A stretch of 64,000 bases of DNA from an uncultured Pelagibacteraceae bacterium (GTDB taxonomy: Bacteria; Pseudomonadota; Alphaproteobacteria; Pelagibacterales; Pelagibacteraceae), in contig CACIOP010000002.1 of the NCBI GenBank assembly GCA_902588315.1, forward strand, positions 1-64,000, given 5' to 3'. Positions 21,292-41,802 of this stretch are shown piece after piece. A program made the position numbers and the translations under genes. How positions within the stretch are numbered: the first letter of the stretch is position 1; each line of letters begins with the position of its first letter. The notes beneath the pieces were generated by a model that made no database searches, was not told the DNA's origin, and was given only the letters and a program-made list of their open reading frames with translations.

Positions 21292-22508
21292 GTTCAGAAA
21301 GTTTTACTATTAGCAAAAAAGCACTAATCACTTTAATTGCTGCTTCTATAGTTGTAATTATTTCTTTAGGAATAAGACAGACCTTTGGATTGTTTTATTT
21401 TGATTTTAATACTGACTTAGATATTTCCATTTCTCATTTTGGTTTTGTTATGGGATTGCAGTTATTACTTTGGGGAGTATTCAGTCCGTTGTTTGGTGTA
21501 ATTACTGATAAATACGGAGGAGCTGTTGCAATATTTATTGGTTTTATTTTTTATTTACTTGGGGTTTTGCTTTTTTATTCTGGCTATAATACTGGAGGTT
21601 ATTTTACTTTAACTATAGGAGTGATGATCGGAATAGGCTTAGGCTCCACTGCAATAGGTATTCCGGTGTCAGTAGTAGCTAAACATTTTCCAGCATCTAA
21701 CAGAACTATTGCAACAGGAATTGTTACATGTGCAGGTTCATTTGGATATTTTGTATCACCTTTACTTGTAAGATATTCCTTAGTTGAAACAGGCTGGGAA
21801 AATACTCTTTTATATTTTTCTCTTCTTTTAGGATTAGGATTAGTGGTAGCTTTGTTTGTTAGTACTCCAAAAATACCTGTAGGAGTTAATCAAGATAACA
21901 ATCAAACAGCAAGAGATGCTCTAAAAGAGGCATTTGCAAACAAAAGTTTTATTTATCTCACTTTAGGTTTTTTTGTTTGTGGTTGGCATATTGCTTTAGT
22001 AGCAACACACATTCCTACTTATATGTCAGACAAAGGTTTGCCTGACTGGACGCCTGCAATGGTTTTAGCTTTGATTGGTGTATTTAATATGGCTGGTACG
22101 ATTACCAGTGGTTATTTAGCAACAAGGTATAGTAAGAAAAAAATTTTAAGTGCCATTTATCTATTAAGAGGAGTTTCCATAATTTATTTTATTTTCTTAC
22201 CACCAAGTATTTTTAATTCTGTAGTATTTGGAGTTACTTTTGGTTTTTTATGGCTATCCACAGTTCCTCCAACAAACGGAATTGTTGCACACATATTTGG
22301 TACAAAATATGTTGGATTGTTATATGGAATAGTTTTTGTAAGCCATCAAATTGGTTCTTTCCTAGGAGCGTATCTAGGTGGTGTATTTTATGAATTAAAC
22401 GGAAATTTTGATTATGCATGGTACGGATCTATCGCATTATCAATTTTTGCAGGTCTGATACATTTACCTATAGTAGAGAAAGCAATTGAAAGAACTCAAC
22501 CAGCATAA
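21288..22508 (+). CDS. MFS transporter
   Basis: 406 residues with twelve hydrophobic segments. The loop between helices 2 and 3 reads GVITDKYGGA, a relaxed version of the MFS G-x-x-x-D-R-x-G motif, and the same position of the second half reads GYLATRYSKKK. The opening (IRQTFGLFYFDFN) is like the monocarboxylate/oxalate-formate (OFA) branch. It overlaps metC by 4 bases and pabB by 23, so it may export or import a product related to those genes. The substrate is unknown. Confidence 0.88.
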   Translation: MSSESFTISKKALITLIAASIVVIISLGIRQTFGLFYFDFNTDLDISISHFGFVMGLQLLLWGVFSPLFGVITDKYGGAVAIFIGFIFYLLGVLLFYSGYNTGGYFTLTIGVMIGIGLGSTAIGIPVSVVAKHFPASNRTIATGIVTCAGSFGYFVSPLLVRYSLVETGWENTLLYFSLLLGLGLVVALFVSTPKIPVGVNQDNNQTARDALKEAFANKSFIYLTLGFFVCGWHIALVATHIPTYMSDKGLPDWTPAMVLALIGVFNMAGTITSGYLATRYSKKKILSAIYLLRGVSIIYFIFLPPSIFNSVVFGVTFGFLWLSTVPPTNGIVAHIFGTKYVGLLYGIVFVSHQIGSFLGAYLGGVFYELNGNFDYAWYGSIALSIFAGLIHLPIVEKAIERTQPA

Positions 22509-23700
22509 GTTTAAATTTAACCCTTATCTAGAGGATCTGTATCAATCAGATAAACCTTTAATTATTTATAAAGTAGAAGATGGCTATAATATTTATACAG
22601 ATTTTTCAAAAAAGATCATTTTAACAAAAAAAAATATACATAATTTTCTTAAATCGTTAGAGAAAAAAAAATACAAAAAAGAAACAGATTTATATCTTGG
22701 TTTTTTTGGTTATGAAATTTTATGTAATTTAATTGGTATTAATTTAAAAAATAAAAAAAGGATAAACTTTTATAAAGGAATTTTTTATAAACCTGAGACT
22801 ATAATTAAAATTAGAAAAGATATTAAAGTTATATCTAGTAAAAAAAAACATAAATTCAATTATCAATTCAACAAAACTCAAATACTAAGTCCCTTTAAGA
22901 TTAATATTTCTTATGCAAAATATAAAAAAATATTTGAATTATTTTCAAAAAAAATAAGACAAGGTGAGACTTATCAAATTAAAATTTGTACAAAATATAA
23001 AAATAAATCTTTAATTAATCCTGTTAATTTTTTTTGGAAATTAATGAAGGTTAATGCATCCCCAGAGTCATTTATGATAAAAGATAAGGATTATTCTATA
23101 GTAAGCTGCTCTCCAGAAACATTGATAGATAAGAAAAAAAACAAAATAATTACAAAACCAATTGCTGGTACTTTTAAGAAAAAATACTCTTCTAATAAAA
23201 ATACAGCTCTTAAATATTTTAAAAATAATGAGAAAGAAACCAAAGAACACAACATGATAGTTGATATGGAAAGAAGTGATTTATCTAAAATTTGTAAACC
23301 AGGAAGTGTTAAAATACTCAAAAAAAAATATGTCGAGGAATATAAGCATCTTTTTCATTATGTGACTTCAATTGGTGGAATATTAAATAAAAATATAAAA
23401 TTGATTGATATCATTAAGGCAATGATGCCGGGAGGATCTGTAATTGGTTGTCCTAAAATTAGAACTTTAGAACTTTTAAATAAACAAGAAAAAGAAAGTA
23501 GAAATATTTTTACAGGAAGTTTTGGATTTATTAAATTTAATCAGGATATGAAGTTTAATATTATAATTAGATCTATATTAAATTATAAAAATCAATCAGA
23601 GATCTCTGCAGCATCTGGTGTAGTATTAGATAGCTCACCAAAGAAAGAGTTCAATGAAAATTATATTAAAGCAAAATCTTTATTGGAGTTATTTAAATGA
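22486..23700 (+). CDS. pabB: Aminodeoxychorismate synthase component I (PabB; chorismate-binding)
   Basis: 404 residues. The C-terminal 260 residues are a chorismate-utilising domain: IRQGETYQIKICTKY, IAGTFKKKYSS, MIVDMERSDL (metal and chorismate site), MMPGGSVIGCPKIRTLELL and FTGSFGFI. With PabA it turns chorismate and glutamine into aminodeoxychorismate. TrpE is the alternative, but the neighbours pabA and pabC favour PabB. The start used is TTG 22486, 23 bases inside the MFS gene; no later ATG lies before the conserved part, so the start is uncertain. Confidence 0.88.
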   Translation: MKELNQHKFKFNPYLEDLYQSDKPLIIYKVEDGYNIYTDFSKKIILTKKNIHNFLKSLEKKKYKKETDLYLGFFGYEILCNLIGINLKNKKRINFYKGIFYKPETIIKIRKDIKVISSKKKHKFNYQFNKTQILSPFKINISYAKYKKIFELFSKKIRQGETYQIKICTKYKNKSLINPVNFFWKLMKVNASPESFMIKDKDYSIVSCSPETLIDKKKNKIITKPIAGTFKKKYSSNKNTALKYFKNNEKETKEHNMIVDMERSDLSKICKPGSVKILKKKYVEEYKHLFHYVTSIGGILNKNIKLIDIIKAMMPGGSVIGCPKIRTLELLNKQEKESRNIFTGSFGFIKFNQDMKFNIIIRSILNYKNQSEISAASGVVLDSSPKKEFNENYIKAKSLLELFK

Positions 23701-24254
23701 TTTACATTATAGATCACCAAGACTCTTTTACTTGGAATGTTGTTCATCAATTTGCAAAATTTGATAAGGTAACTTGTACAAATTATTATGAAGTAAATGA
23801 TAAATTACTTGATAAAAGTGATGTGATTGTTTTATCACCAGGACCTGGATCACCAAAGGATTATCCTGCTACTTCAAAAATTTACAAAAAATACAAAGGA
23901 AGAAAAAAAATTATTGGTATTTGTCTTGGTTATCAAATGATTTTGCATAATGAAGGGGGAAAAATAATACAGCAAAAAAAAATTTATCATGGCTTTCAAT
24001 CTAAAATAAAAACAAATTATCAAAGTAAAATCTTCAAAAACAATCAACAGTTTAAAGTTGGAAGGTATCATTCATTAAAATTAATGGAGCCATTTAAATC
24101 GAATTCTATTAAAATAACTATGAGATGTAGTAAAACAAAAATACCAATGGGTCTTGAGGATAATCAAAACAAAATATATGGATTTCAATTTCATCCAGAA
24201 TCTTTTTTAACAGAAAATGGCAACGCTCTTATACAAAAAATCTTATCAGCTTAG
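23697..24254 (+). CDS. pabA: Aminodeoxychorismate synthase component II, glutamine amidotransferase
   Basis: 185 residues, a class I glutamine amidotransferase. Motifs are YIIDHQDSFTWNV, VLSPGPGSPKDY, the nucleophile Cys76 in GICLGYQM, and the His166/Glu168 pair in FQFHPES. It releases ammonia from glutamine for PabB. The start overlaps the pabB stop by 4 bases. A shared TrpG/PabA role is common in bacteria and cannot be ruled out. Confidence 0.9.
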   Translation: MIYIIDHQDSFTWNVVHQFAKFDKVTCTNYYEVNDKLLDKSDVIVLSPGPGSPKDYPATSKIYKKYKGRKKIIGICLGYQMILHNEGGKIIQQKKIYHGFQSKIKTNYQSKIFKNNQQFKVGRYHSLKLMEPFKSNSIKITMRCSKTKIPMGLEDNQNKIYGFQFHPESFLTENGNALIQKILSA

Positions 24255-24960
24255 TAATCTTAAAGAAGTTACTTTCAAAGATCTTTGGGGATCCAGAGGT
24301 GTATTCACTACAATGCGAATGGTTGGAAAACCTCCTAAGTTAATACTTTTAAAACCGCATTTAGAGAACTTAATAAAATCTACAAAAATATATGGAATAA
24401 GAAAAAACAATTTAAAAAACATTATAAAAGATTTAATTAAAAAAAATACTTTATATAAAGGTTCTGATAATTTATTTCGTATAGCGTTAAATAAAAAACT
24501 GATATCAGTCTCAATTAGAAAAAGACCAAAACCAAAAAGTAAATTCAATCTTTTATTGTTTAAATATAAAAGGGTAGAACCAAATTACAAAAATCTTTAT
24601 TATAAAAAAATATTAGCAAAATTAAGCAAAGTTGACTCAACTAAATTTGATATTGCCCTTGTCGATAATGACAAAATTTTGGAAACTGGTACTTCAAATT
24701 TAGTTTTTGTGAAAAATGGAAAGATTTTTTCACCTAAAAAAAATTGTTATTTTGGAAATACACTTAAATTTATAAGCAAGAAAATTAAAATTAATTTTAA
24801 AGATATTTCTATTAAATCAATTGATGATTATGATGAAATAATTCTTATTGGATCTGGTAAAGGGGTAACATCAGTTTCAAAAATAAATGATCTTAAATGG
24901 AAGAGAAGAAAGACTGGTTGCTACACTAAGTTAAATAAAATATATAATTCTCTTGTTTAA
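24217..24960 (+). CDS. pabC: Aminodeoxychorismate lyase / class IV aminotransferase
   Basis: 247 residues of the fold-type IV PLP family: GSRGVFTTMRM near residue 27, a lysine region YKKILAKLSK near residue 128, ALVDNDKILETGTSNLVFV and, near the C-terminus, IILIGSGKGVTSVSKIN. The lyase converts aminodeoxychorismate to p-aminobenzoate and pyruvate. The ATG at 24217 lies 38 bases inside pabA, a long overlap, yet no closer ATG precedes the domain. Conservation is modest, so identity rests partly on gene order. Confidence 0.8.
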   Translation: MATLLYKKSYQLSNLKEVTFKDLWGSRGVFTTMRMVGKPPKLILLKPHLENLIKSTKIYGIRKNNLKNIIKDLIKKNTLYKGSDNLFRIALNKKLISVSIRKRPKPKSKFNLLLFKYKRVEPNYKNLYYKKILAKLSKVDSTKFDIALVDNDKILETGTSNLVFVKNGKIFSPKKNCYFGNTLKFISKKIKINFKDISIKSIDDYDEIILIGSGKGVTSVSKINDLKWKRRKTGCYTKLNKIYNSLV

Positions 24961-24962: not shown

Positions 24963-25361
24963 ATGAAAGATCCAAACAACCCTTGCATATTTTGCGAAAT
25001 CAGAAAAGATGAGCTGCAATTTGAAAATCAATTGGCTTACTCATCCATAGATAGTTATCCAGTCTCAGAATTTCATAGTCTTATCGTTCCTAAAAGACAT
25101 GTAGAGACATACTTTGAGCTTACTAAAAAAGAAATTCAGGCATGTAACGAGTTAATTTTAAAAACTAAAGAAAAAATTTTAAAACAAGATTCTAGTATTA
25201 AAGGTTTTAATATAGGTACAAATGCAGGAAAATCTGCAGGCCAATCAATTATGCATTGCCACATTCATTTAATTCCAAGAAGAGAAGGGGATGTCGATAA
25301 TCCTCAGGGCGGTGTTAGGTCAGTGATTCCCAACAAACAACACTACAAACGTAAACTCTGA
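24963..25361 (+). CDS. HIT family nucleotide hydrolase/transferase
   Basis: 132 residues. The histidine triad is HCHIHLIPRREGD (His98, His100, His102), and CIFCEI (Cys8, Cys11) near the start is typical of Hint proteins. Members hydrolyse adenosine phosphoramidates, dinucleoside polyphosphates or adenylylsulfate. HIT enzymes acting on adenylylsulfate are known in other organisms, and an APS-forming operon begins 105 bases downstream, so a role in APS turnover is possible but unproven. Confidence 0.88.
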   Translation: MKDPNNPCIFCEIRKDELQFENQLAYSSIDSYPVSEFHSLIVPKRHVETYFELTKKEIQACNELILKTKEKILKQDSSIKGFNIGTNAGKSAGQSIMHCHIHLIPRREGDVDNPQGGVRSVIPNKQHYKRKL

Positions 25362-25466: not shown

Positions 25467-26267
25467 ATGTTTGCAACAAATCCTTTTTCAATTCTAGCTG
25501 AAACAGTTCCATCTATAGTTATGCAAGGTTTTGTAGTTTTAATGGTTTTATTAATTGTTGCAGGCACTCTTTTAGACATAATTCATAAAAAGAATGTGAA
25601 ATACTTTTTTGAAAACGCCAAGAAAGCAAAAAAAAATGCGACCAAAGAACTGTCAACTGGTGAAAGAATTGCAGTTGTTTCAAAAACAATAGCATATGAC
25701 ATCGGAACTACATCAGAACTAGGGGCGGGCAAAAGAAGAGTAGCGCATGTTCTTGGTATGTACGGTACTATATTATTTTGGGTTGGCTCTGTTGTGATGA
25801 TATTTTGTTATTCATCAGCAAATGCAGAAACACCAACCATTTGGCCAATGATCTGGCATATTGGCGCTTTGATGACGATCCTGGGCGGATCATGGTTTTG
25901 GTTCTTTTTAAGAGTTGATGTTTATTCTGAAGCGCAACCTTGGTACAGAATTATTAAAGCAGATTTATTTGTATTAGCTCTGATTGCAACTTCCTTAACT
26001 GGATTTATTTGGTCATATCTTCAAGGTTTAAATTTAGAAGGAAGATGGGATGCAACTCTATTTTTAGTATTATTTGTAGTTTCAAACCTAGTTTTATTTG
26101 GAGGAGTTTATTGGTCTAAGTTTGCACATATGTTTTATAAACCTGGGGCAGCAATACAAAAGAATTTAGCTGAAGCAGATGGTTCAAGAGATAATTTACC
26201 ACCACCTGCAGATGCACCTGAACAATTTGGTTTGGGTATTAAAAGAGAACAACCTAAACATTATTAA
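25467..26267 (+). CDS. aprM: Adenylylsulfate reductase membrane anchor AprM
   Basis: 266 residues with about six hydrophobic helices and a cytoplasmic loop rich in lysine between the first two (about residues 45-85). Histidine-bearing helices such as MIWHIGALMTILGG could hold heme or contact quinone, as in NarI-like anchors. AprM is known upstream of aprBA in several sulfur-oxidising bacteria and in SAR11, where it takes the place of the Qmo complex as the link between AprBA and the quinone pool. Order and spacing here (33 bases to aprB) fit that role. Confidence 0.85.
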   Translation: MFATNPFSILAETVPSIVMQGFVVLMVLLIVAGTLLDIIHKKNVKYFFENAKKAKKNATKELSTGERIAVVSKTIAYDIGTTSELGAGKRRVAHVLGMYGTILFWVGSVVMIFCYSSANAETPTIWPMIWHIGALMTILGGSWFWFFLRVDVYSEAQPWYRIIKADLFVLALIATSLTGFIWSYLQGLNLEGRWDATLFLVLFVVSNLVLFGGVYWSKFAHMFYKPGAAIQKNLAEADGSRDNLPPPADAPEQFGLGIKREQPKHY

Positions 26268-26300
26268 TTATGATAAAATTTAAAAAGGAGAGAGAATAAT

Positions 26301-26771
26301 ATGTCAACATTTGTATATATGACAAGATGTGATGGCTGTGGTCATTGCGTAGATATTTGCCCATCAGATATAATGCACATTGATGAAAACATTAGACGTG
26401 CAAAAAATATAGAACCTAACTTTTGTTGGGAATGTTATTCTTGTGTCAAAGCTTGTCCTAATCACGCTATTGATGTTAGAGGATATGCAGACTTTGCTCC
26501 AATGGGACATAGCGTTAGAGTAAGAAGGGAAGAAGAAAAAGGAACAATCTCTTGGAAAATTAAATTCAGAAATGGAACTGAAAAAAATTTTGTATCTCCG
26601 ATAACAACTAAGCCTTGGGGAAAATTTATTCCTAAATTAGCTGATGGGGATAAACCTAATCAAGGTGAGATAAATTCACAAAGATTATACACTGAACCAG
26701 AAGGATTAAACATAGATGGAGAGCTTCCGAGTGTTCCAAAAGAGTCGTTCAAAAAAGGAGTTTACTATTAA
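26301..26771 (+). CDS. aprB: Adenylylsulfate reductase beta subunit AprB
   Basis: 156 residues, an iron-sulfur subunit with two four-cysteine clusters: CDGCGHCVDIC (Cys10, 13, 16, 20) and CWECYSCVKAC (Cys42, 45, 48, 52). It passes electrons between the AprA flavin and the membrane. A strong ribosome site, AAGGAG, lies 10 bases before the ATG, suggesting high expression. The stop overlaps the aprA ATG by one base (TAATG). In this non-sulfate-reducing setting the direction is expected to be sulfite to APS. Confidence 0.95.
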   Translation: MSTFVYMTRCDGCGHCVDICPSDIMHIDENIRRAKNIEPNFCWECYSCVKACPNHAIDVRGYADFAPMGHSVRVRREEEKGTISWKIKFRNGTEKNFVSPITTKPWGKFIPKLADGDKPNQGEINSQRLYTEPEGLNIDGELPSVPKESFKKGVYY

Positions 26772-28630
26772 TGGCTAGTCATAAAACTCATTACGAAGAT
26801 TGCGATATATTAGTTGTCGGTGGAGGTATGGCTGGTACGGGTGCTACCTTTGAAGCAAGACACTGGGGTAGAGACATGAAAATTGTTTGTGTTGAAAAAG
26901 CTAACATTGATAGAAGTGGAGCTGTTGCTCAAGGACTTTATGCAATTAACTGCTACATGGGAATGCAATGGGGTGAAAACCAACCAGAAGATCACGTTAG
27001 ATATGCAAGAAATGATTTAATGGGAATGGTAAGAGAAGATTTAGGTTATGACATGGCTCGTCACGTAGACTCTACAGTACATATGTTTGATGAATGGGGT
27101 CTGCCTATGATGAAGAATGAAGAAACTGGAAGATACCTAAGAGAGGGTAAATGGCAGATTATGATCCACGGTGAAAGTTATAAACCGATTGTTGCAGAAG
27201 CTGCAAAAAAATCTGCAGATAAAATTTATAATAGAATAATGATAACTCATCTTTTAATGGATGAGGCTCAAGAAAATAGAATTGGTGGAGCAGTAGGATT
27301 TAACATGAGAACAGGTGATTTCCATGTTTTTAGAGCAAAAGCGGTAATAGTTGCTGCTGGTGGAGCTTCACATATCTTTAAACCAAGAGCGGTTGGAGAA
27401 GGAATGGGTAGAACCTGGTATGCACCATGGAGTAATGGATCTGCATATGCATTACCTATTGCAGCAGGTGCGAAGATGACTCAAATGGAAAATAGAATTG
27501 TATTATGTAGATTTAAAGATGGTTACGGTCCAGTTGGAGCTTATTTTCTTCATTTAAAAACATATACACAAAATGCTAATGGCGAAAACTATGAGAAAAA
27601 ATGGTATGATCAAACTAAAGAGTTAGTTGGAGAGTATATTGATCATCATCCAACACCAACTTGTTTGAGAAACCATGCATTTATTCAAGAAGTAGCTGCA
27701 GGTGGTGGACCAATCCATATGGTAACTACTGAAGCTTTCCAAGATCCACATTTAGAAACAGTAGGTTGGGAAAATTTCTTAGGAATGACTGTTGGTCAAG
27801 CTGTAGTTTGGGCATCTCAAAACATTGATCCAAAATACACAAATCCTGAGTTAACTACATCAGAACCGTATGTAATGGGATCTCATGCTACTTGTTCGGG
27901 CGCATGGGTCAGTGGCCCTGAGGATTTATCACCACCAGAATATTTCTGGGGTTATAACAGAATGCTGACTATTGATGGTTTATTTGGTGCAGGAGATACA
28001 GTTGGTGGAAGTGCCCATAAGTTTTCATCTGGATCTTTTACAGAAGGTAGATTAGCTGCAAAAGCTGCTGTTAAATACATTGAAGACAAAAAAGCCGAAG
28101 GGGTTAAAGTTTCAGATAAACAGTGTGAGGATTTCAAAACTGTAGTTTACAAACCACTAGAAAACTACACAGTTGCTAGAAATGAGATTACTGGTGGAAC
28201 AGTTTCTCCTAGCTATATATCTCCAATCCAAGGTCTTCAAAGATTACAGAAAATCATGGATGAATACGTGGGTGGAATTACCTCAAATTACATGACTAAT
28301 GGTAATATGCTGAAAAGAGGACTTGAGTTATTAGATTGGTTACAAGAGGACTTGGAGCATGTTGGAGCTGAAGATTATCACCAGCTTATGAGAGCTTGGG
28401 AGTTGAAACATAGAGCTTTGACTTCTCAGTGTGTAACGGAACATACTTTATTTAGAGAAGAGACTAGGTGGCCAGGCTACTATTATAGAGGTGATCATAT
28501 GAAGCTAGATGATGAAAATTGGCATTGTCTAACAGTTTCTAGACGTGACCCTAAAACTGGCAAGTTTAGTATGGAGAAAGTTCCTGTCTACCATATAGTG
28601 GATGAGAACGAGAAGAAAAAAGCTTCGTAG
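26771..28630 (+). CDS. aprA: Adenylylsulfate reductase alpha subunit AprA
   Basis: 619 residues, flavoprotein of the fumarate reductase group. The FAD motif is DILVVGGGMAGTGATFEA (residues 12-29) and the AprA-specific C-terminus, with TLFREETRWPGYYYRGDH, carries arginines and histidine near the substrate site. It catalyses the reversible AMP + sulfite to APS reaction. With suyAB and xsc a few kilobases away producing sulfite, oxidation of sulfite is the sensible direction. No ATP sulfurylase gene lies in this window, so how APS is converted onward is not shown here. Confidence 0.96.
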   Translation: MASHKTHYEDCDILVVGGGMAGTGATFEARHWGRDMKIVCVEKANIDRSGAVAQGLYAINCYMGMQWGENQPEDHVRYARNDLMGMVREDLGYDMARHVDSTVHMFDEWGLPMMKNEETGRYLREGKWQIMIHGESYKPIVAEAAKKSADKIYNRIMITHLLMDEAQENRIGGAVGFNMRTGDFHVFRAKAVIVAAGGASHIFKPRAVGEGMGRTWYAPWSNGSAYALPIAAGAKMTQMENRIVLCRFKDGYGPVGAYFLHLKTYTQNANGENYEKKWYDQTKELVGEYIDHHPTPTCLRNHAFIQEVAAGGGPIHMVTTEAFQDPHLETVGWENFLGMTVGQAVVWASQNIDPKYTNPELTTSEPYVMGSHATCSGAWVSGPEDLSPPEYFWGYNRMLTIDGLFGAGDTVGGSAHKFSSGSFTEGRLAAKAAVKYIEDKKAEGVKVSDKQCEDFKTVVYKPLENYTVARNEITGGTVSPSYISPIQGLQRLQKIMDEYVGGITSNYMTNGNMLKRGLELLDWLQEDLEHVGAEDYHQLMRAWELKHRALTSQCVTEHTLFREETRWPGYYYRGDHMKLDDENWHCLTVSRRDPKTGKFSMEKVPVYHIVDENEKKKAS

Positions 28631-28651
28631 TAGATAATTTAATTAAATCAA

Positions 28652-29002
28652 ATGGATATTTTATCTAAATCAGATGATGAAATATATGAATTAGCCAAAC
28701 CTATTTGGGATAACTTGGTTAAATCATCTAATCTAAAAGATTATGGTGGGTTTACTAGAGATTTCTCTACCCAAATGCTTTTTGGTGCCAACGAAGTAGA
28801 ACTTGGTAAACAGTGGGCTAATAATAAGCTTATCACTAATCTTAAAGAGACTTTCGAACCTTTTGGATGCCTAAGAAGAGGTAATCACATAACTGTTTTG
28901 ATCAAACAGACAAATAAAGAGATCCCAGGAGAGTTCCTTGGAAGGTTGGTGTTAGGAGTTGAGGACGATACAATTAAAGTTTTTGGGGCTACCATCTACT
29001 AG
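28652..29002 (+). CDS. Uncharacterised 116-aa protein of the apr operon
   Basis: It starts 21 bases after aprA on the same strand. The protein is soluble, has one cysteine (GCLRRG) and ends in a run of beta strands (FLGRLVLGVEDDTIKVFGA). The blocks GGFTRDFSTQMLFGANEVEL and FGCLRRGNHITVLIKQ look conserved in character, but I match no family. The position suggests a function in AprBA assembly, in handling APS or sulfite, or in sensing. That is inference from context only. Confidence 0.75.
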   Translation: MDILSKSDDEIYELAKPIWDNLVKSSNLKDYGGFTRDFSTQMLFGANEVELGKQWANNKLITNLKETFEPFGCLRRGNHITVLIKQTNKEIPGEFLGRLVLGVEDDTIKVFGATIY

Positions 29003-29034
29003 GCAAAAAAAATTGCTTAATAATAAATTATTGT

Positions 29035-29062
29035 TTGACAAATTTCGTTGTGGGTGTATTGA
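29035..29062 (+). promoter_or_regulatory. Possible promoter before the 44-aa ORF and TSUP exporter
   Basis: TTGACA (29035-29040) and TATTGA (29057-29062) are separated by 16 bases. The small ORF starts at 29071, so a transcript begun here would be nearly leaderless. It could give the exporter a promoter separate from the apr operon. The short GCAA/TTGC inverted repeat just before it is too weak to be a convincing terminator. Confidence 0.3.
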
Positions 29063-29070
29063 CGAATTAA

Positions 29071-29205
29071 ATGTTACTTTCTAACGTAAAAATTATCAAT
29101 AAACTCTCAAATTTTAAAACCACATTTATTAAGGCAGGAATTATAGCAAGCTTAACAGCTTACTGGGGAGTGATTTTAGTTGGAACTTTTATCACTTTTA
29201 ACTAA
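29071..29205 (+). CDS. Small membrane protein (44 aa) between apr genes and TSUP exporter
   Basis: ATG 29071 to TAA 29203-29205. The first 20 residues are polar and basic (SNVKIINKLSNFKTT), then one hydrophobic helix (about residues 21-43) with ITAYWG-like composition (SLTAYWGVILVGTFITF). It fits neatly between two genes of the sulfur cluster, 29 bases before the exporter. No family recognised. Confidence 0.5.
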   Translation: MLLSNVKIINKLSNFKTTFIKAGIIASLTAYWGVILVGTFITFN

Positions 29206-29234
29206 GTTGTTTTTTAACAGCTTTTAAATTTTTT

Positions 29235-30314
29235 ATGGAAGTATTTTTACCGATAGCTCAAGTTTTTGTTAACCCTATCGAAATACTTTTATTAAGCGCA
29301 ATTGTTGGAGTACTTTCAGGTTTATTTGGTGTTGGTGGTGGGTTTTTGATGACACCTTTTTTAATTTTTTTAGGAATACCTCCTGCATACGCTGTTGCAA
29401 ATGAAGCAAATAATATCTTAGCTACTTCAGTTTCTGGATCTACCACGCATTATTTAAAAAATACTTTAGATTATAAAATGGGTTCAATGATTGTAATTGG
29501 AGGTGTAATTGGAACTTCTTTAGGAATTTATACTTTTACATATTTTAAAGGTATTGGAAAAATTGATACAGTTATCTCTCTAGCTTATATGTATATATTG
29601 GCAATAATCGGAACTTTAATGTTGGTTGAGAGTTTGGGTGAAATAGATAAAGCAAAAAGAAACGTTGTAGTTAAAAAAAAATTACATGTTCATTATTGGA
29701 TACATGGTCTTCCATTAAGAATGAGATTTCCAAAGTCAAAATTATATGAGAGTATTTTTACACCAATTATAATTGGTTTATTAGTTGGATTTATTGCAGC
29801 CATTATGGGAATCGGAGGTGCTTTTATTTTAGTTCCTGCAATGATTTATATAATTAAAATGCCTACTAAATTAGTTCCTGGTACATCTTTATTTGTAACA
29901 ATTTTTGTAAGTGTGGTTGTTACTTTTCTTCATTCATTTAATTATGGGTCAATAGATTTATTTCTAGTTCTTATGTTAGTTGTAGGATCTATAATAGGAG
30001 TTCAGGTTGGGCAAAAATTAGGAGAAAGAATCGATAGTTCTGGTTTAAGAGCCTTATTAGCAATTTTATTACTGATAGTAGGTATAGCGATAGCATACGA
30101 TACGTTTTTTGCAGACAAAATTATAAATGGAACTGCTAAAGCAACTAGTTCAGATTTAAATTTCTTTTCTCAATTTATAATTGATTTTTCTAAAGAAATG
30201 CCTTTCTTTTATGGACTATTTACAATTATGTTTGCAATTATTTTAGGTGTTGGAGCAGCTTTTATAAGACGATTTATTTCAAACTTTAGAAAAAAATTAT
30301 TAGTTAAATCTTAA
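29235..30314 (+). CDS. TSUP (TauE/SafE) family permease, candidate sulfite or sulfonate exporter
   Basis: 359 residues, longer than the 248-residue TSUP protein at 2058. The duplicated glycine-rich repeats VGVLSGLFGVGGGFLMTP and VGFIAAIMGIGGAFILVP are diagnostic. About nine helices, with a cytoplasmic loop near residue 150-170, fit the TauE type. TauE/SafE members next to xsc or suyAB are proposed to export sulfite or sulfoacetate. It lies between aprMBA and suyBA, so sulfite or sulfate export is the best guess. The stop shares TTAA with the convergent gene's stop. Confidence 0.85.
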   Translation: MEVFLPIAQVFVNPIEILLLSAIVGVLSGLFGVGGGFLMTPFLIFLGIPPAYAVANEANNILATSVSGSTTHYLKNTLDYKMGSMIVIGGVIGTSLGIYTFTYFKGIGKIDTVISLAYMYILAIIGTLMLVESLGEIDKAKRNVVVKKKLHVHYWIHGLPLRMRFPKSKLYESIFTPIIIGLLVGFIAAIMGIGGAFILVPAMIYIIKMPTKLVPGTSLFVTIFVSVVVTFLHSFNYGSIDLFLVLMLVVGSIIGVQVGQKLGERIDSSGLRALLAILLLIVGIAIAYDTFFADKIINGTAKATSSDLNFFSQFIIDFSKEMPFFYGLFTIMFAIILGVGAAFIRRFISNFRKKLLVKS

Positions 30315-31378
30315 TTAAAAAAATTTAAATATAATTCGATAGTTGTAATACTAACCAATCCTACCGTTGCCATACCTATAAAACCAACTATAAAAGGCTT
30401 GTAGCCCATATTTTTAAGTTCTTTTAAGTTAGTTGAAAGCCCTATTGCTGCCATTGCCATTGTTAAAAATATTTTTGAGGACAATTTAATACCCTCAATT
30501 GCAACCAACCATTCGTAATTATTTGAGTACATTAGATCACCTAAATTTCTAATTATTATCATTGCTACAAATCCTAATACAAAGTAAGGAAAAATATCTA
30601 TTATTGAGTACTTCTTTTCTGTAGTTTTTCCTCGATTATAAAGAAATGCAAATAAAGGGATCATTATAATCAAAAAGGTATTCCTTATTAATTTTGTGAC
30701 TGTTGCGACATTTAAAGTTTCAGGACTATTAAACTGCTGGTCATAAATCAGCCCTGCAGCTGCAACTTGAGAGGTTTCATGGATAGAGGTTCCCAAAAAT
30801 AATCCAATTAATAAAGGCTCGCTTTCGAAATAAAAGTTGGCAAAATACGGATAAATAAGCATCGAAAGAATTCCAAACAATGTAATATTAGCAATTGCAT
30901 ATGATACCTCATTTTTTTTTGCACCAATTACAGGAGCAGTAGCCATTATTGCAGTAGTACCACAGACAGTGCTGCCTATTGATATTAAGTAAGCCATTCT
31001 TGTTGGTATTTTTAATTTTTTAATTAGAAGTTTGATTACAATTAAAACACTAATTATACAGATTATAATTATTGGAATTGCTATCGCCCCAAATTCTAAA
31101 AATTCAAATGGCTTTAATTGAATACCTAAGCAAATAATACCAAGTTTTAGAATATATTTTTGTGTAAAATCTAAACCTCTTAAAAAACTATCTCTAATTT
31201 GAAAAACATTTCCGAAAAACATTCCCAACAAAATAGCAATCATTGCTGTAGATATTGGGCTTTTTTCATAGCCTAATAGCTCAATACCAAGAATGTTATT
31301 GAAACCTTGAGATAAAGTGTAAAGAACAAATGCCAATATAATACCTGGTAATACAACCAGGTATTTGTTAAATTTCAT
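30311..31378 (-). CDS. YeiH/UPF0324 family putative sulfate exporter
   Basis: 355 residues with about ten helices. Marks of the UPF0324 family are ISTAMIAILLGMFFGN, IGSTVCGTTAIMATAPVIGA and GTSIHETSQVAAAG. Members of this family (for example TauZ) are found with sulfonate-degradation genes and proposed to expel sulfate or sulfite. Here it is the third gene of a suyA-suyB-exporter operon, 16 bases after suyB. Having both a TSUP and a YeiH exporter suggests two outlets, perhaps for sulfite and sulfate. Confidence 0.85.
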   Translation of the reverse strand: MKFNKYLVVLPGIILAFVLYTLSQGFNNILGIELLGYEKSPISTAMIAILLGMFFGNVFQIRDSFLRGLDFTQKYILKLGIICLGIQLKPFEFLEFGAIAIPIIIICIISVLIVIKLLIKKLKIPTRMAYLISIGSTVCGTTAIMATAPVIGAKKNEVSYAIANITLFGILSMLIYPYFANFYFESEPLLIGLFLGTSIHETSQVAAAGLIYDQQFNSPETLNVATVTKLIRNTFLIIMIPLFAFLYNRGKTTEKKYSIIDIFPYFVLGFVAMIIIRNLGDLMYSNNYEWLVAIEGIKLSSKIFLTMAMAAIGLSTNLKELKNMGYKPFIVGFIGMATVGLVSITTIELYLNFFN

Positions 31379-31394
31379 GAAAGATTAAAGTTAA

Positions 31395-32561
31395 TTAAGC
31401 ACTTCTGTAAAGTTTAGTCATAACAAATTCTTTATGACCTAAAGCTTCAGCACAAGTTAATCTACCGTTTGCTACTCTTAGTGTAGTTTTAATTAATTCA
31501 TCACCTGCTTCAGATAAATTCATTTCTCTTGAAAGAATTTTCGAAACATCACAATCGATATGTTCTCCCATACCTTTTACGGTTAATGGATTGGCTGTTA
31601 ATTTAACAACAGGTTCAATTGGATTTCCAACGATATTACCTTGTCCAGTTGGGAATAAATGAATATTAAAACCAGCAGCAGCTTGAAGAGTCACACATTC
31701 TGCAGCAGCAGATGATGTGTCCATAAAATACAAACCTTTTCCTTTAGTTGGCTCTTCTGCTGGTTCAAGAACATCAATAAATTTACAATTTCCAATTTTT
31801 TGAAAATTACCAAAAGCTTTTTCTTCAATTGTTGTAAGTCCCCCAGCAATATTTCCAGCTGTTGGTTGACTCTCAGAAAGATCATCTGTCGCTTCTTTTA
31901 AAATAAAATCATTATAAGAGCTCCAAGTTTTCATAAATTTTTCAGAAGCTTCTTTAGTAGCCCCTCTAGTTGCACAAACTTGTTCTGCACCAGTTAATTC
32001 AGAGGTTTCACCAAAACATAAGTGAACACCTAATGGTTCAAGTTTGTCCATTAGGTTTCCAACAGTTGGGTTTGCAGCTAGTCCTGAAGTAGTATCAGAC
32101 TCTCCACACTTAACAGAGATCCATAAATCACTTAAAGGACACTCTTCTCTTTGTTTTTCTGAAGCCCACATCACAAATTCTTGTGCTTTTTTTGAAGCCT
32201 TCATTGTCGTGCCAATATCTCCTGTACGCTCAATATGAAATCCTTCAACTGGTTTTCCAGTTTTAGCAATCCCATCTACAATTTTTTTTGTCCATTTCGG
32301 TTCAATACCAATTACAATTACTGCTGCAACATTTGGATTACATCCAGTTCCTATCATTGTTCTAAAATGAAGCTCTAAGTCTGCACCAAACTGAAGTCTT
32401 CCGTAAGAATGAGGAAGAGCGATTGTACCTTTAATATTATTAGCAACTGCCTCTGCACATGCGTTCGAAATATCATCAACTGGCAAAATAATTACATGAT
32501 TTCTTGTTCCGGCTCTGCCGTTTTCTCTTTTATAACCTAAAAAGCTTTTTGGGATTTCCAT
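31395..32561 (-). CDS. suyB: (2R)-sulfolactate sulfo-lyase large subunit SuyB (UxaA family)
   Basis: 388 residues of the UxaA/altronate dehydratase C-terminal family: [15 protein letters not shown] at the start, [31 protein letters not shown] and [16 protein letters not shown] near the end. SuyB and SuyA together split 3-sulfolactate into pyruvate and sulfite. Sugar-acid dehydratases share the domain, but xsc next door, an exporter behind it and the free-standing small subunit favour SuyB. It lies 4 bases after suyA. Confidence 0.83.
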
Positions 32562-32565
32562 TCTA

Positions 32566-32850
32566 TTACCACTTCTTTGTTTTTACATTGTGAACATGGA
32601 CATGCTCACCTTTTTTGATTGATTTAACAACTTTACCAATATCGTGACCATACTTTAAAATAGTATCACCCTCTTTAAGGTCAATCATTGCAATTTTATG
32701 ACCTAAAGGTATTTCATCTACGGATTGAATATTTGTTGAACTGTCGTCTTCCATTATCCAGCAAGCACAGTCTTGCTTGGGAGTGATTTTTTCAATAACA
32801 ACTACTCCCACGTTGTCTTTTTTGTCATGTATGATTATATCTGTTGCCAT
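32566..32850 (-). CDS. suyA: (2R)-sulfolactate sulfo-lyase small subunit SuyA (SAF domain)
   Basis: 94 residues forming one SAF-type beta-clip domain, as in the N-terminal part of altronate dehydratases: [18 protein letters not shown] and [20 protein letters not shown], ending HVHNVKT. In fused enzymes this domain precedes the large part; in SuyAB it is a separate gene, as here. It is divergent from xsc across 111 bases holding an inverted repeat, so the two sulfonate branches may be co-regulated. Confidence 0.83.
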
Positions 32851-32872
32851 ATCGTGTCGATTTGTTTGTTTG

Positions 32873-32921
32873 AAATTCGTAAAAACTTATATATTAATCG
32901 CACAAATTAACAAACGAATTT
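32873..32921. promoter_or_regulatory. Inverted repeat in the suyA-xsc divergent promoter region
   Basis: AAATTCGT (32873-32880) and ACGAATTT (32914-32921) are exact inverse copies separated by 33 bases, in the middle of the 111-base space between the divergent suyA and xsc starts. The spacing, about four helical turns centre to centre, suits a looping or dimeric regulator. No regulator gene is nearby. Candidate operator only. Confidence 0.35.
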
Positions 32922-32961
32922 TATAAATAGTAAAATTACACTTTAGAGAGGTTCTAGTTTT

Positions 32962-34746
32962 ATGACAAAAATGACAACAGAAGAAGCTTTTGTAAAAGTT
33001 TTACAAATGCACGGTATTGAACATGCGTTTGGAATTATCGGTTCAGCCTTTATGCCTATTTCAGATATATTTCCAGATGCAGGTATTACTTTCTGGGATG
33101 TCGCTCATGAAACAAATGGTGGTTTAATTGCTGATGGTTACACACGAGCTACTGGTAAAATGTCAATGGTTATTGCCCAGAATGGACCTGGAATAACCGG
33201 ATTAGTTACACCAATTAAAACAGCTTATTGGAATCACACTCCTCTTTTATTAGTTACACCGCAAGCAGCGAACAAAACAATGGGGCAAGGTGGATTTCAA
33301 GAAGTAGAGCAAATGAATTTATTTAAAGACATGGTTTGTTATCAAGAAGAAGTAAGAGATCCATCAAGAATGGCTGAGGTACTAAATAGAGTTATAGAAA
33401 AAGCTATAAGAGGATCAGCGCCAGCACAAATTAATGTTCCAAGAGATTATTGGTGTCAAGTAATTGATATCGATCTTCCTCCAATTGTAAGACTTGAAAG
33501 ACAAGGGGGAGGGAATGATGCTGTAGCTAAAGCAGCTGACTTGCTATCAAAAGCAAAGTTTCCAGTAATATTATCAGGAGCAGGTGTTGTTATTGGCGGA
33601 GCTATTGAAGCTACAAAAAAACTTGCAGAAAAATTAGACTCACCTGTTTGCTCAGGTTACCAACACAATGATAGTTTCCCTGGAAGCCATCCATTAGCTG
33701 TTGGTCCCCTAGGATACAATGGATCAAAAGCTGCAATGGAATTAATTTCAAAAGCTGACGTAGTGTTAGCTTTGGGAACTAGATTAAATCCATTTTCTAC
33801 TTTACCTGGTTATGGAATTGATTATTGGCCAAAGAATGCAAACATTATTCAAGTTGATATTAATCCTGACAGAATAGGTTTAACTAAAAAAGTTACTGTA
33901 GGAATAAGTGGTGATGCAAAATTAGTTGCTGAACAAATTTTAGAAAAATTATCTTCAAATGCTGGTGATACTGATAGACAAGCTAGAAAAGATTTAATTC
34001 ACCAAACCAAATCAGCTTGGTTACAAAAGCTCTCAAGTTTAGATCATGAAGATGATGATGAGGGAACAGTTTGGAATAAAGAAGCTAGAGAAAGAGATTC
34101 AGACAGAATGTCACCAAGACAAGCTTGGAGAGCAATTCAAGCAGGAATGCCTGATGATGTAATTATATCAAGTGATATTGGAAACAATTGTGCAATTGGT
34201 AATGCTTACCCAACATTTGAAAAACCAAGAAAATATTTAGCACCAGGATTATTTGGTCCTTGCGGTTATGGTTTCCCATCAATATTAGGAGCAAAGATTG
34301 GTTGTCCAGATACTCCTGTCATTGGATTTGCTGGAGATGGTGCTTTTGGAATAAGTATGAATGAAATGAGCTCATGTGCTAGGGAAGAGTGGCCTGCAAT
34401 AACAATGGTAATTTTCAGAAATTATCAATGGGGAGCAGAAAAAAGAAATACAACACTATGGTTTGATAATAACTTTGTTGGTACAGAATTAGATCCAGAA
34501 TTAAGTTATGCTAAAGTTGCTGACGCATGTGGCTTAAAAGGTGTAACTGTTAGAACAATGGAAGAAACCACAAATGCAATCAAGCAATCTTGTGAGGATC
34601 AAAAAAAAGGCATTACAACCTTTATTGAAGTAATTCTTAACCAAGAGCTTGGTGAACCTTTTAGAAGGGATGCTATGAAAAAACCAGTAAGAGTAGCAGG
34701 TATTAAAAAAGAGGATATGAAGAAGCAACCTTCTTTAAATTCTTAA
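32962..34746 (+). CDS. xsc: Sulfoacetaldehyde acetyltransferase Xsc
   Basis: 594 residues, a thiamine-diphosphate enzyme. The TPP-activating glutamate is Glu50 in VAHETNGG, and the metal/TPP motif GDGAFGISMNE starts at residue 458. HNDSFPGSHPLAVGPLGYNG and NYQWGAEKRNTTLWFDNN are Xsc-specific when compared with acetolactate synthases. It turns sulfoacetaldehyde and phosphate into acetyl phosphate and sulfite, the last step in using taurine, isethionate or sulfoacetate carbon. It starts a rightward unit with the flavoprotein gene 39 bases downstream. An acetolactate synthase is the less likely alternative. Confidence 0.92.
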   Translation: MTKMTTEEAFVKVLQMHGIEHAFGIIGSAFMPISDIFPDAGITFWDVAHETNGGLIADGYTRATGKMSMVIAQNGPGITGLVTPIKTAYWNHTPLLLVTPQAANKTMGQGGFQEVEQMNLFKDMVCYQEEVRDPSRMAEVLNRVIEKAIRGSAPAQINVPRDYWCQVIDIDLPPIVRLERQGGGNDAVAKAADLLSKAKFPVILSGAGVVIGGAIEATKKLAEKLDSPVCSGYQHNDSFPGSHPLAVGPLGYNGSKAAMELISKADVVLALGTRLNPFSTLPGYGIDYWPKNANIIQVDINPDRIGLTKKVTVGISGDAKLVAEQILEKLSSNAGDTDRQARKDLIHQTKSAWLQKLSSLDHEDDDEGTVWNKEARERDSDRMSPRQAWRAIQAGMPDDVIISSDIGNNCAIGNAYPTFEKPRKYLAPGLFGPCGYGFPSILGAKIGCPDTPVIGFAGDGAFGISMNEMSSCAREEWPAITMVIFRNYQWGAEKRNTTLWFDNNFVGTELDPELSYAKVADACGLKGVTVRTMEETTNAIKQSCEDQKKGITTFIEVILNQELGEPFRRDAMKKPVRVAGIKKEDMKKQPSLNS

Positions 34747-34785
34747 AACCTTTATAATAATAAGCAATTATCGTAATCTGCTTCT

Positions 34786-36090
34786 ATGGAAGTTGTAAAT
34801 GATAATAATTGTGGATGGATTAAAGATTTATCTTCTAGAAAAAATATTAAAACGCTTTCGTCTGATTTAGATTGTGAGTGGTTGATTGTAGGCGCTGGTT
34901 ACACAGGATTGTCTGCAGCAAGGAAGCTAGCTAAATTAAATCCAAATCAAAAAATTATATTAGTAGATGCGCAAAAAGCAGGAGAAGGTGCTAGCTCTAG
35001 AAATTCAGGTTACTTAGTTGATACGACTCTTAATGATGGTTTTACTTCAAACAAGGAATTAGAAAAATATAAAAAAAAATCTGATATTTATAATTTAGGA
35101 ATAAGGGTTGTAAAAAAATTTATTAAAGAGCATCAAGTGGATTGTGATTGGAATGAATGTGGAAAATATTTTGCATCCTCCAAAGTTGAGGATAAAAAAA
35201 TTTTAGACAACTTTTCAAACATACTCTCTAAACTTGGATTTAATCATGCTTTGTTAGATAAAAATCAATTATCTAAAAAACTAGGTACTGAATTTTACAA
35301 CATTGGTCTTTTTACAAAAGGTGGAATTTTAATACATCCTGGTAAATTAGCTAGATCAATGGTTAATTGTTTACCTAATAATGTAGAATTATTTGAAAAC
35401 ACAAATTTATTTAAATGGTTTTCATTTAAAGATTATATCATCTGCCATTTTATTAACGGAAAAATAAAAACAAAAAAAATTATTTTTGCCACAAATGGTT
35501 TTTTGAAATCATTAGGTTTAAAAGTAAATTATAATTTTCCAATAACTTTAACAGCGAGTATGACAAGACCATTAACAGATGAAGAGTTTAAAGCTATTGG
35601 TCAACCTAAAGAATGGGGCGTGTTGCCAGTAAGACCTATGGGCGCAACAATAAGAATGACCAAGGATAGAAGAATTTTAATTAGAAATACAGCTGAGTTA
35701 CGCAATCCATTTAAAATGTTAAACTCAGATATAGAAAAGAGATTAAATTTTCATAAAATAGGAATTAAAAAAAGATTTCCTCAGTTAGGTGATGACCTAA
35801 TTAAGTCTACTTGGTCTGGTGTTGTTTCGAGAACAAGAAATAGTTCACAAATTTTTGAAAAAATAAGTAAGAATATTTTTGTTGCTGGATGTTATAATGG
35901 CTCTGGTATAGGTGTCGGAACACTTTTTGGTGAACAAATTGCGTTAAAAGCTTGCAATGAATCTTCTAGAGAAATTGAAATTATAGAAGGAAGAAATTTA
36001 CCAACTATTTTACCACCTAAACCATTTTTAGATTTAGGAATAAAAATTAGATTAATTTATGAAAGGCTAAAAGCTTCATCTGACTTATAA
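34786..36090 (+). CDS. FAD-dependent amine oxidoreductase (DadA/TauY-like)
   Basis: 434 residues. The FAD Rossmann motif is IVGAGYTGLSA (Gly36, 38, 41); ASSRNSGYL follows and the C-terminal flavin contact is AGCYNGSGIGVGTLFGEQIA. This is the DAO superfamily, covering D-amino acid dehydrogenases and the large subunit of taurine dehydrogenase TauXY. It follows xsc by 39 bases, so oxidation of taurine or an N-substituted taurine to sulfoacetaldehyde is the attractive reading. No TauX-like small subunit is visible, which weakens an exact TauY call. Confidence 0.85.
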   Translation: MEVVNDNNCGWIKDLSSRKNIKTLSSDLDCEWLIVGAGYTGLSAARKLAKLNPNQKIILVDAQKAGEGASSRNSGYLVDTTLNDGFTSNKELEKYKKKSDIYNLGIRVVKKFIKEHQVDCDWNECGKYFASSKVEDKKILDNFSNILSKLGFNHALLDKNQLSKKLGTEFYNIGLFTKGGILIHPGKLARSMVNCLPNNVELFENTNLFKWFSFKDYIICHFINGKIKTKKIIFATNGFLKSLGLKVNYNFPITLTASMTRPLTDEEFKAIGQPKEWGVLPVRPMGATIRMTKDRRILIRNTAELRNPFKMLNSDIEKRLNFHKIGIKKRFPQLGDDLIKSTWSGVVSRTRNSSQIFEKISKNIFVAGCYNGSGIGVGTLFGEQIALKACNESSREIEIIEGRNLPTILPPKPFLDLGIKIRLIYERLKASSDL

Positions 36091-39483: not shown

Positions 39484-40076
39484 TAAAAGAATAATATTTT
39501 AATATCTGTGTAAATCAACTCAACTGCTACAATTAAAATGGCTAACAATCCAAGCCAAGCTATCCATCTATATTTTTTAATCCATCCAGAAATTAAAGTT
39601 GCTGCAGTTGCCATTAAAACTATTGATAAAACTAATCCAAATACAAGTAGTCCATAATGTTCACCAGCTGCACCTGCCACACCCAGAACATTATCTAAAC
39701 TCATTGTAAAATCAGCTAATAGAACAGTCCAAATAGCCTTTAAAAAACTAGAGCTATCTACTTTAATGTCTTCTTCGGTCTCCGAGCCTTTTATTACATC
39801 CACATAAAGTTTGTAAACAATATAAAGGAGCAGCAATCCACCTATTAACCGTAAACCTGTAATTTGTAAAAGATATGCAGTAAGCAATGTTAAAATAATT
39901 CTTAAAATAACAGCGCCACCAATTCCCCAGAAAATAACTTTTTTTCTTTGTTCAGGTGGAAATTTAGATGCGACCATTCCAATTATAATTGCATTGTCTC
40001 CAGCTAAAACTAAATCAATAAGAATAATTTGAGTTAATATTGCTATTTGTTCAGGTGTAAAAAATTCTGCAAACAT
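39483..40076 (-). CDS. TerC family integral membrane protein
   Basis: 197 residues with about seven helices. ILIDLVLAGDNAIIIGMVA and, further on, LADFTMSLDNVLGVAG are the two acidic-helix repeats that define TerC-type proteins. Family members (Alx, MeeF/MeeY) export manganese, often to metallate exported enzymes. The gene overlaps its neighbours by one base on each side, so it is translated with the GMC dehydrogenase and SDR. A metal exporter role is inferred from the family. Confidence 0.88.
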   Translation of the reverse strand: MFAEFFTPEQIAILTQIILIDLVLAGDNAIIIGMVASKFPPEQRKKVIFWGIGGAVILRIILTLLTAYLLQITGLRLIGGLLLLYIVYKLYVDVIKGSETEEDIKVDSSSFLKAIWTVLLADFTMSLDNVLGVAGAAGEHYGLLVFGLVLSIVLMATAATLISGWIKKYRWIAWLGLLAILIVAVELIYTDIKILFF

Positions 40077-41671: not shown

Positions 41672-41772
41672 TACTTAGAACTCTTATAAATTAAAATTTT
41701 TTATTTGTAACATTTCTGTACACAAAAAAATTAAAATAATCCAATATTAACACTTGTTTTAGATTTCATTCT

Positions 41773-41802
41773 TTGACAAGCTTTTGTTTTTAAAAATATA
41801 GA
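41773..41802 (+). promoter_or_regulatory. Candidate promoter of the TRAP operon
   Basis: TTGACA (41773-41778) is a perfect -35 element and TATAGA (41797-41802) a fair -10, with an 18-base spacer. A purine-rich ribosome site (GAGAGGG) follows directly before the dctP ATG at 41814, so the leader would be very short. The gap is shared with the divergent GMC gene. Confidence 0.4.

Follow-up and report, generated by a model that had tools for sequence, protein, structure and literature searches.

The window analysed here is a 64,000-nucleotide stretch (contig CACIOP010000002.1, positions 1 to 64,000) from an uncultured bacterium of the SAR11 family Pelagibacteraceae. Between positions 25467 and 36090 it carries genes for two predicted sulfite-releasing enzymes of sulfonate degradation, SuyAB and Xsc, together with aprMBA, which encodes both subunits of adenosine 5′-phosphosulfate (APS) reductase. 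We propose, with a probability of roughly 0.46, that this island strips the sulfur from sulfonates and oxidises it, and that a small HIT-family protein encoded immediately upstream (24963–25361, + strand) removes the APS. The gene identities, their linkage, their co-occurrence and the rarity of ATP sulfurylase are direct observations. A first reading made from the letters alone, here called the sequence-only reading, had described the interval as a compact sulfonate-to-APS module; it deserves to be viewed together with the HIT gene.

Composition and conservation of the SAR11 cluster

The window belongs to genome G000 (1.12 Mb in 29 contigs, 83% complete). All of the open reading frames (ORFs) that the sequence-only reading had named between 25467 and 36090 are present at their positions and on their strands, and its gene identities are borne out, those of AprB, AprA, Xsc, TSUP, YeiH, SuyB and DAO by family matches above curated cut-offs. 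AprB (26301–26771, +), the beta subunit of APS reductase, scores 187.7 bits against TIGR02060 (cut-off 135.65) and the alpha subunit AprA (26771–28630, +) scores 989 bits against TIGR02061 (cut-off 641.75), while the sulfoacetaldehyde acetyltransferase Xsc (32962–34746, +) scores 965 bits against TIGR03457 (cut-off 676.4). The membrane protein AprM (25467–26267, +) takes its name from its position, because the ORF preceding aprB is called aprM in the literature (PMC2211403); it is 43–54% identical to its positional counterparts in seven loci of other alphaproteobacteria. An aprM in front of aprB is a feature of Apr lineage I of the sulfur-oxidising bacteria (PMC2211403) and is found in the window and in 95 of 98 SAR11 loci. 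No qmo genes were recognised near the cluster of the window, where no search was aimed at them.

We followed the cluster through a sample of 197 genomes of the SAR11 family, 99 of which have an aprA above the cut-off and three a partial one, making 102 carriers. Profile searches of these genomes covered xsc, aprA, sat, the HIT gene, pabB and c18, a nucleotidylyltransferase gene described below. For 98 aprA loci, stretches of up to 20 kb were fetched and their genes called; a number of these are cut by contig ends. Both aprA and xsc are present in 96 of the 197 genomes, aprA only in six, xsc only in three and neither in 92, and in all nine single-gene cases among the 105 genomes with either gene a contig end interrupts the assembly close to the cluster. 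Since the two genes co-occur and every exception lies at a contig end, AprBA in SAR11 travels with sulfonate cleavage and not with sulfur metabolism generally.

The order of the genes is conserved far beyond chance. In 82 of 83 loci suyA and xsc adjoin each other and diverge, and in 83 of 98 a single stretch no longer than 20 kb contains aprA, suyB and xsc, several of the others being cut by contig ends. Comparing gene order across many SAR11 genomes was the check that the sequence-only reading had proposed for its module, and the order passes it. Across the 98 loci we counted aprB in 96, the ORF o116 in 96, aprM in 95, a TSUP permease in 87, suyB in 87, xsc in 86, suyA in 83, a YeiH-family permease in 23 and a DAO-type oxidoreductase in 18. 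The overall interpretation offered by the sequence-only reading thus survives in part: its gene identities, its gene order and its assignment of SuyAB stand, whereas the membership of an amine oxidase and a fixed unit with two exporters do not (see below).

The most constant neighbour of aprA in SAR11 is o116 (28652–29002, +), a 116-residue ORF lying directly 3′ of aprA in the window. It immediately follows aprA in 95 of the 98 loci; in one of the other three, aprA is split and o116 comes after it. Forty-nine of its 116 positions are invariant in 21 copies, which are 66–84% identical to the copy of the window. In a contig scan based on o116, the 80 loci kept out of 574 confirmed ones are all SAR11 by their titles, with aprA beside o116 in 80 of 80, and a genome outside the SAR11 family (G467) has a 44% identical homologue directly after aprA. 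Neither o116 nor AprM reached any Pfam or NCBIfam family at cut-off, and o116 has no solved relative at an E value of 1. A model built from a shallow alignment (pLDDT 59.6) leans towards an NTF2/cystatin-like sheet; in Foldseek this low-confidence model has no match at E ≤ 0.001, and its top matches are cystatin/NTF2-like. The only plasmid match to o116, from Methylomonas (27% identity, E 7e-3), lies among transposon genes and is either noise or a distant lead.

SuyB (31395–32561, −; PF04295 and PF20629 over cut-off) and the 94-residue SuyA (32566–32850, −) are the predicted large and small subunits of (R)-sulfolactate sulfo-lyase. Among the best 30 of 316 plasmid records matching SuyB, 13 are 59–69% identical to it and the next is 39% identical; the nearest relatives listed (65–69%) include one in an hpsN-hpsO-suyAB locus. 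We examined three loci of the high-identity group and one of the low. In the former, hpsN and hpsO precede suyAB in Cupriavidus pinatubonensis, suyAB is followed by a sulfate-exporter-family gene in Paracoccus versutus, and in Methylobacterium oryzae suyAB occurs with TauE and a molybdopterin oxidoreductase; the low-group locus, from Variovorax, has no sulfonate gene in its annotation. SuyA itself has only weak matches, to SAF and galactarate-dehydratase N-terminal families, and shares 46% identity with the gene in front of suyB in P. versutus. At the level of sequence and gene context, these data support SuyAB being a sulfo-lyase and not a sugar-acid dehydratase; the sequence-only reading had taken the pair for a sulfo-lyase, which agrees with the sulfonate loci around its closest relatives and with the identity gap (59–69% versus 39%). 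HpsO, HpsP and HpsN homologues of cultured SAR11 strains have been assayed, so that a route to sulfolactate exists in SAR11 (PMC11131964).

APS removal and the HIT gene

AprBA converts sulfite and AMP to APS, from which, in the known pathway, ATP sulfurylase then yields sulfate and ATP. The ATP sulfurylase family PF01747 is present in nine of the 197 SAR11 genomes and in six of the 102 aprA carriers. It was not found in G000 (83% complete) or in 96 of the 102 carriers, some of whose assemblies are incomplete. The absence of ATP sulfurylase that the sequence-only reading had noted for the window therefore extends to the whole of this assembly, and with it comes a consequence missing from that reading, namely that the cell still has to dispose of APS and regain AMP. 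Of the two components of Apr-plus-Sat sulfite oxidation, aprBA is present and ATP sulfurylase was not found. Five of the nine SAR11 loci with PF01747 were read by translation, and in four (G158, G074, G002 and G094) the gene lies among surface-sugar-type genes, away from aprBA, in one case beside an APS-kinase-like gene. That most SAR11 lack ATP sulfurylase has been stated before (PMC10356861). The rest of the class differs: in a sample of 270 alphaproteobacterial genomes, 12 have aprA, and all ten of these from outside the SAR11 family have ATP sulfurylase, within 2.2 kb of aprA in seven.

One candidate for a minimal ATP sulfurylase is c18, a 126-residue nucleotidylyltransferase with a weak resemblance to ATP sulfurylase (16.9 bits, cut-off 24.3) that is encoded in 38 of the 98 aprA loci, often immediately 5′ of aprM. 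We rejected it, as it is not specific to aprA: it is present in 117 of the 197 genomes, aprA-negative ones included, and also elsewhere in G000. Together with c29, an APS-kinase-like protein, c18 forms a widespread SAR11 pair (for example L058:6230–6607 and L033:5013–5417), and open frames of 257–289 residues in a number of genomes suggest fused forms. Separately, a gene that appears by translation to encode a metallophosphoesterase lies beside aprA in several non-SAR11 alphaproteobacteria (L223, L224, L225 and L227), and there is one at L229:4012–4776 as well; its product is another conceivable APS or nucleotide hydrolase.

The HIT gene of the window encodes a stand-alone protein of 132 residues (PF01230, 63.9 bits, over cut-off) with the triad H98-C-H100-I-H102. 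The HxHxH triad is invariant in 22 of 22 aligned copies. Among solved chains, the nearest relatives are HIT, Ap4A phosphorylase and Fhit proteins, with modest similarity (E 7e-17 to 1e-7), and no APS hydrolase or ADP sulfurylase model is among the NCBIfam matches. A profile built from 22 SAR11 copies finds this HIT subfamily in 64 of the 197 genomes, all 64 of which carry aprA. The association was noticed first and tested afterwards, and the p-values given here ignore relatedness. Outside the genus of the window, the gene is present in 19 of 53 genomes with aprA and in none of 93 without (p 4e-10, not corrected for relatedness). In the o116-based contig scan, the HIT gene accompanies 75 of the 80 loci kept, and the other five begin at aprB or aprA.

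Of 66 HIT copies, 63 are no more than 12 kb from aprA, 46 of them upstream on the strand of aprM and 17 downstream on the strand of suyAB. The gene thus has two slots in SAR11, either between pabC and aprM or as the last gene of suyAB. All 17 downstream copies follow suyB on the same strand, and 16 share one base with its stop codon (TAATG), the pattern expected of a coupled suyA-suyB-HIT operon. The slots match two clades in the HIT tree (support 100/98 and 99/93, with two and one copies from elsewhere), and support of 98/73 does not settle between single and double recruitment. The tree leaves out a fusion protein of genome G063, in which the motif was not found, and a 67-residue fragment of locus L038.

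Beyond SAR11, the HIT profile matches eight of the 270 class genomes at an E value of 1e-20. In four the protein is a stand-alone HIT of about 130 residues, and all four carry aprA: two are SAR11 and the others are G395 and G510. The remaining four matches are longer. Judged by their translations, they have an N-terminus of HNH type in G485 and G370, one resembling it in G449 and a different extension in G459; none of these genomes is among the 12 with aprA. The stand-alone and fused forms were separated after the matches had been seen, so the link between stand-alone HIT and aprA (p 0.001) is post hoc, and two genomes from outside SAR11 are few. In G510, a distant alphaproteobacterium, a single run contains aprB, aprA (51% identity to that of the window), a 315-residue ORF, HIT (47%) and xsc (81%), with ATP sulfurylase at one end and at the other, on the opposite strand, a phosphotransacetylase (pta)-like gene just below cut-offs. 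This is a third HIT arrangement, between aprBA and xsc.

Proposed route and competing explanations

HIT enzymes form a nucleotidyl-histidine and release a leaving group, and certain HIT proteins hydrolyse or phosphorolyse APS. We propose HIT as the APS-removing step because most of these genomes lack a detectable ATP sulfurylase. In the route that we infer for this organism, SuyAB would cleave (R)-sulfolactate to pyruvate and sulfite, and Xsc would convert sulfoacetaldehyde, derived from taurine or isethionate, and phosphate to acetyl phosphate and sulfite. AprBA, bound to AprM and with o116 as a possible dedicated partner, would then turn sulfite and AMP into APS and pass two electrons to the membrane. 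The middle histidine of the HIT triad would take the adenylyl group of APS, releasing sulfate, and would then transfer AMP either to water, which recycles it, or to phosphate, which yields ADP; the TSUP permease, and YeiH where present, would export the anion. Every reaction in this organism is conjectural, the HIT step above all. By analogy, the HIT protein is most likely an APS hydrolase or an APS:phosphate adenylyltransferase that liberates sulfate and gives back AMP or ADP. With phosphorolysis, some of the energy would be conserved via adenylate kinase; with hydrolysis, the gain would be detoxification and the two electrons. The stricter proposal of a Sat-free sulfite-to-sulfate route, in which the small HIT is a dedicated APS cleaver (adenylylsulfatase or ADP sulfurylase) occupying two slots of the SAR11 sulfonate cluster and recurring next to aprBA and xsc in an alphaproteobacterium far removed from SAR11, and in which o116 is a further AprBA partner, is tentative, and we lean against it in this full form.

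The closest competitor keeps the same island but makes HIT a neighbour by way of the history of the pab operon, or a general nucleotide clean-up enzyme, with APS being lost through slow hydrolysis or to an ordinary HIT protein or some other enzyme; we regard this as quite plausible, if short of an even chance. Several observations weigh for it and against a HIT step in the route. This HIT is absent from 38 of the 102 aprA carriers (34 of these belong to other genera) and is thus neither obligatory nor the only answer to the APS problem, and HIT-domain proteins of any kind occur in 176 of the 197 genomes, aprA-negative ones included, so that a general one could suffice. In the genus of the window, the gap between pabC and HIT is −4 to +9 bases in 43 of 44 loci, while HIT lies about 100 bases from aprM (77–116 in 44 of 45); in this genus HIT therefore looks like the end of a pab operon. 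The suyAB slot and G510 alone link HIT to sulfur genes where no pab is involved, and on account of the pabC packing we weighted the HIT step lower and its rival higher. Nor do the genus-mates serve as controls. The aprA-negative G140 and G143 lack this pabB as well (they have only TrpE-like proteins of 30–31% identity, and the contig of G143 begins in xsc), so that whole blocks are missing; of four more genus-mates without HIT, three lack this pabB and one (G273) has part of it. The comparison with aprA covered the 197 family genomes; of 21 further HIT-positive genomes, G263 has aprA by its fetched stretch. HNH–HIT fusions occupy the slot before aprM in G263 (L196:3456–4451) and, in G063, a restriction-like island with DNA-methyltransferase and nuclease-like genes (L195:2953–3900), so the HIT domain has other uses, and similar HIT genes are found on plasmids of many bacteria (45 records). 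The outside cases are also imperfect, as G510 has ATP sulfurylase as well and its assembly is 8% contaminated, and in G395 the HIT gene is on a different contig from aprA, where no sulfur gene was recognised. In SAR11 itself, the fifth PF01747 locus read, that of G174, spoils a clean picture, as its ATP sulfurylase lies about 3 kb beyond xsc, though adjoining an APS-kinase-like gene. A mere pab neighbour is, however, harder to square with the fact that all 64 sampled family genomes with this HIT carry aprA, with the second slot and its one-base overlap at the end of suyAB, and with the third cluster beside xsc in a distant bacterium.

The other explanations are much less probable. AprBA could instead feed APS into synthesis of 3′-phosphoadenosine 5′-phosphosulfate (PAPS) through an APS-kinase-like protein, for the sulfation of cell-surface sugars, with CysQ clearing 3′-phosphoadenosine 5′-phosphate. 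This would fit the presence of c29 (PF01583, 36 bits, cut-off 21.1) in 12 of the 98 aprA loci, a CysQ-like phosphatase gene in the window (17851–18621; 188 bits, below the cut-off of 229) and the listing of cysC and cysQ in cultured SAR11 (PMC5069961). Yet c29 is missing from the cluster of the window and from 86 of 98 loci; c18, which it usually adjoins, is present in 117 of 197 genomes irrespective of aprA and so follows something else; where ATP sulfurylase sits next to an APS-kinase-like gene (G174, G002), PAPS can be made independently of AprBA; and catabolic sulfite would presumably exceed any need for sulfation. Together these make the PAPS explanation improbable. We consider it very unlikely that SuyAB is an altronate/galactarate-type sugar-acid dehydratase: the best named model is galactarate dehydratase and the only solved relative found is GarD, but the former match reaches 155 of 731 bits, far under the cut-off, and the identity gap and the sulfonate-type surroundings of the three high-group loci, set against the Variovorax locus, speak for a sulfonate enzyme. 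Least probable of all is a reductive AprBA acting as an assimilatory APS reductase. The enzyme is reversible in principle (PMC5069961), but no ATP sulfurylase that could make its APS was found in 96 of 102 carriers (some assemblies being incomplete), the linkage to two sulfite-releasing enzymes is constant, the locus is of the AprM type of sulfur oxidisers (PMC2211403), and aprBA transcripts are lower under sulfur limitation (PMC5069961).

Thiobacillus offers a precedent for splitting APS with release of sulfate, in its APS:phosphate adenylyltransferase (APAT), or ADP sulfurylase, and in the Apr–Sat pathway, and APAT belongs to the wider HIT/GalT superfamily. The SAR11 protein differs in being a single-domain HIT of 132 residues, and its cleavage of APS is putative. 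With Fhit and Ap4A phosphorylase it has the HIT domain in common, at modest similarity; Fhit proteins use APS, swapping sulfate for ammonia (PMC8704414).

That AprBA is the sink for SuyAB and Xsc sulfite is mostly already known. In Pelagibacteraceae, AprAB has been described as clearing the sulfite that SuyAB and Xsc release (PMC12636525), and AprBA as a sulfite detoxifier is an older idea (PMC5069961, PMC5864207). The published view of SAR11 (PMC12636525 and earlier papers cited in PMC10356861 and PMC5864207) has the same enzymes in the same inferred role, and in its relevant passages gives neither an APS-removing enzyme nor the HIT and o116 genes. 'Ca. Taurinisymbion ianthellae' (Tpa, Xsc, AprAB, QmoAB/HdrBC and Sat) likewise is described as oxidising Xsc sulfite with AprBA via APS, with electrons passing to quinone (PMC10356861), but it has Sat and Qmo, whereas SAR11 mostly lacks Sat, has AprM and a HIT gene, and carries suyAB within the cluster. 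Paracoccus loci also place suyAB beside a sulfate-exporter-family gene (PMC12421959); the P. versutus stretch, however, has no aprBA among 14 annotated features. What is new is the association of HIT and o116 with aprBA, of which we found no report in the open-licence literature searched, and the contrast in ATP sulfurylase between SAR11 and other alphaproteobacteria. Few cells on Earth are as numerous as those of SAR11, and where ATP sulfurylase is lacking, APS is a dead end. The aprAB genes are among the SAR11 core genes under strongest purifying selection (PMC12636525). The candidate HIT makes the APS gap testable with one purified protein, which would decide whether sulfate leaves with or without energy gain.

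Exporters and flanking genes

The TSUP (TauE/SafE) permease (29235–30314, +; PF01925, 154 bits, over cut-off) is a likely sulfite/sulfate exporter and the YeiH-family permease (30311–31378, −; PF03601, 228.6 bits, over cut-off) a possible sulfate exporter. YeiH falls below the cut-off of TIGR00698 (154.8 against 232.6 bits) and is only 26% identical to the sulfate-exporter-family gene after suyAB in P. versutus. The sequence-only reading had joined aprMBA and both exporters in one fixed unit, which does not hold, as YeiH occurs in 23 and TSUP in 87 of the 98 loci. It had also counted an amine oxidase as part of the module. This gene encodes a DAO-type FAD oxidoreductase (34786–36090, +; PF01266, over cut-off), here taken as accessory, and follows xsc directly in only 15 of 82 loci. 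The conserved unit accordingly excludes the DAO gene, and YeiH is optional. We considered the DAO protein as a taurine dehydrogenase but did not count it as part of the route, since its closest relatives among the plasmid matches listed are 34–35% identical and it is not conserved beside xsc; it has no solved relative at an E value of 1e-8. Between o116 and the TSUP gene lies a membrane ORF of 44 residues (29071–29205, +), called from the sequence, with matches in part of the SAR11 loci.

A SorU-like cytochrome c, c30 (NF052248, 87.4 bits, cut-off 100), is encoded in 12 of the 98 aprA loci, near aprM or TSUP (for example L044, L050 and L062), and could be an electron acceptor for AprBA/AprM. 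A SorTU sulfite dehydrogenase using c30 was set aside because no gene for a molybdenum subunit was recognised beside c30, no genome-wide search for one being made. Further downstream, a GMC oxidoreductase and a three-part TRAP transporter (40076–44920) also occur near some other SAR11 loci (L200, L202). They might form an isethionate unit, which we do not claim, as plasmid searches returned generic names only. Elsewhere the window appears to encode a second TSUP-like permease (2058–2804), so named by reading of its sequence, and a cystathionine beta-lyase-like enzyme below the equivalog cut-off (20113–21291). An Rfam scan of the window found three tRNAs only.

Upstream of aprM in the genus of the window are pabB-pabA-pabC (22486–24960). 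In most loci outside the genus (for example L017 and L045), a CADD-family gene (TIGR04305, 303 bits, cut-off 200) lies near that place. The CADD-family protein is a different enzyme related to p-aminobenzoate, and the pattern, with pabB in 45 loci and the CADD gene in 42, has the appearance of an in situ pathway replacement.

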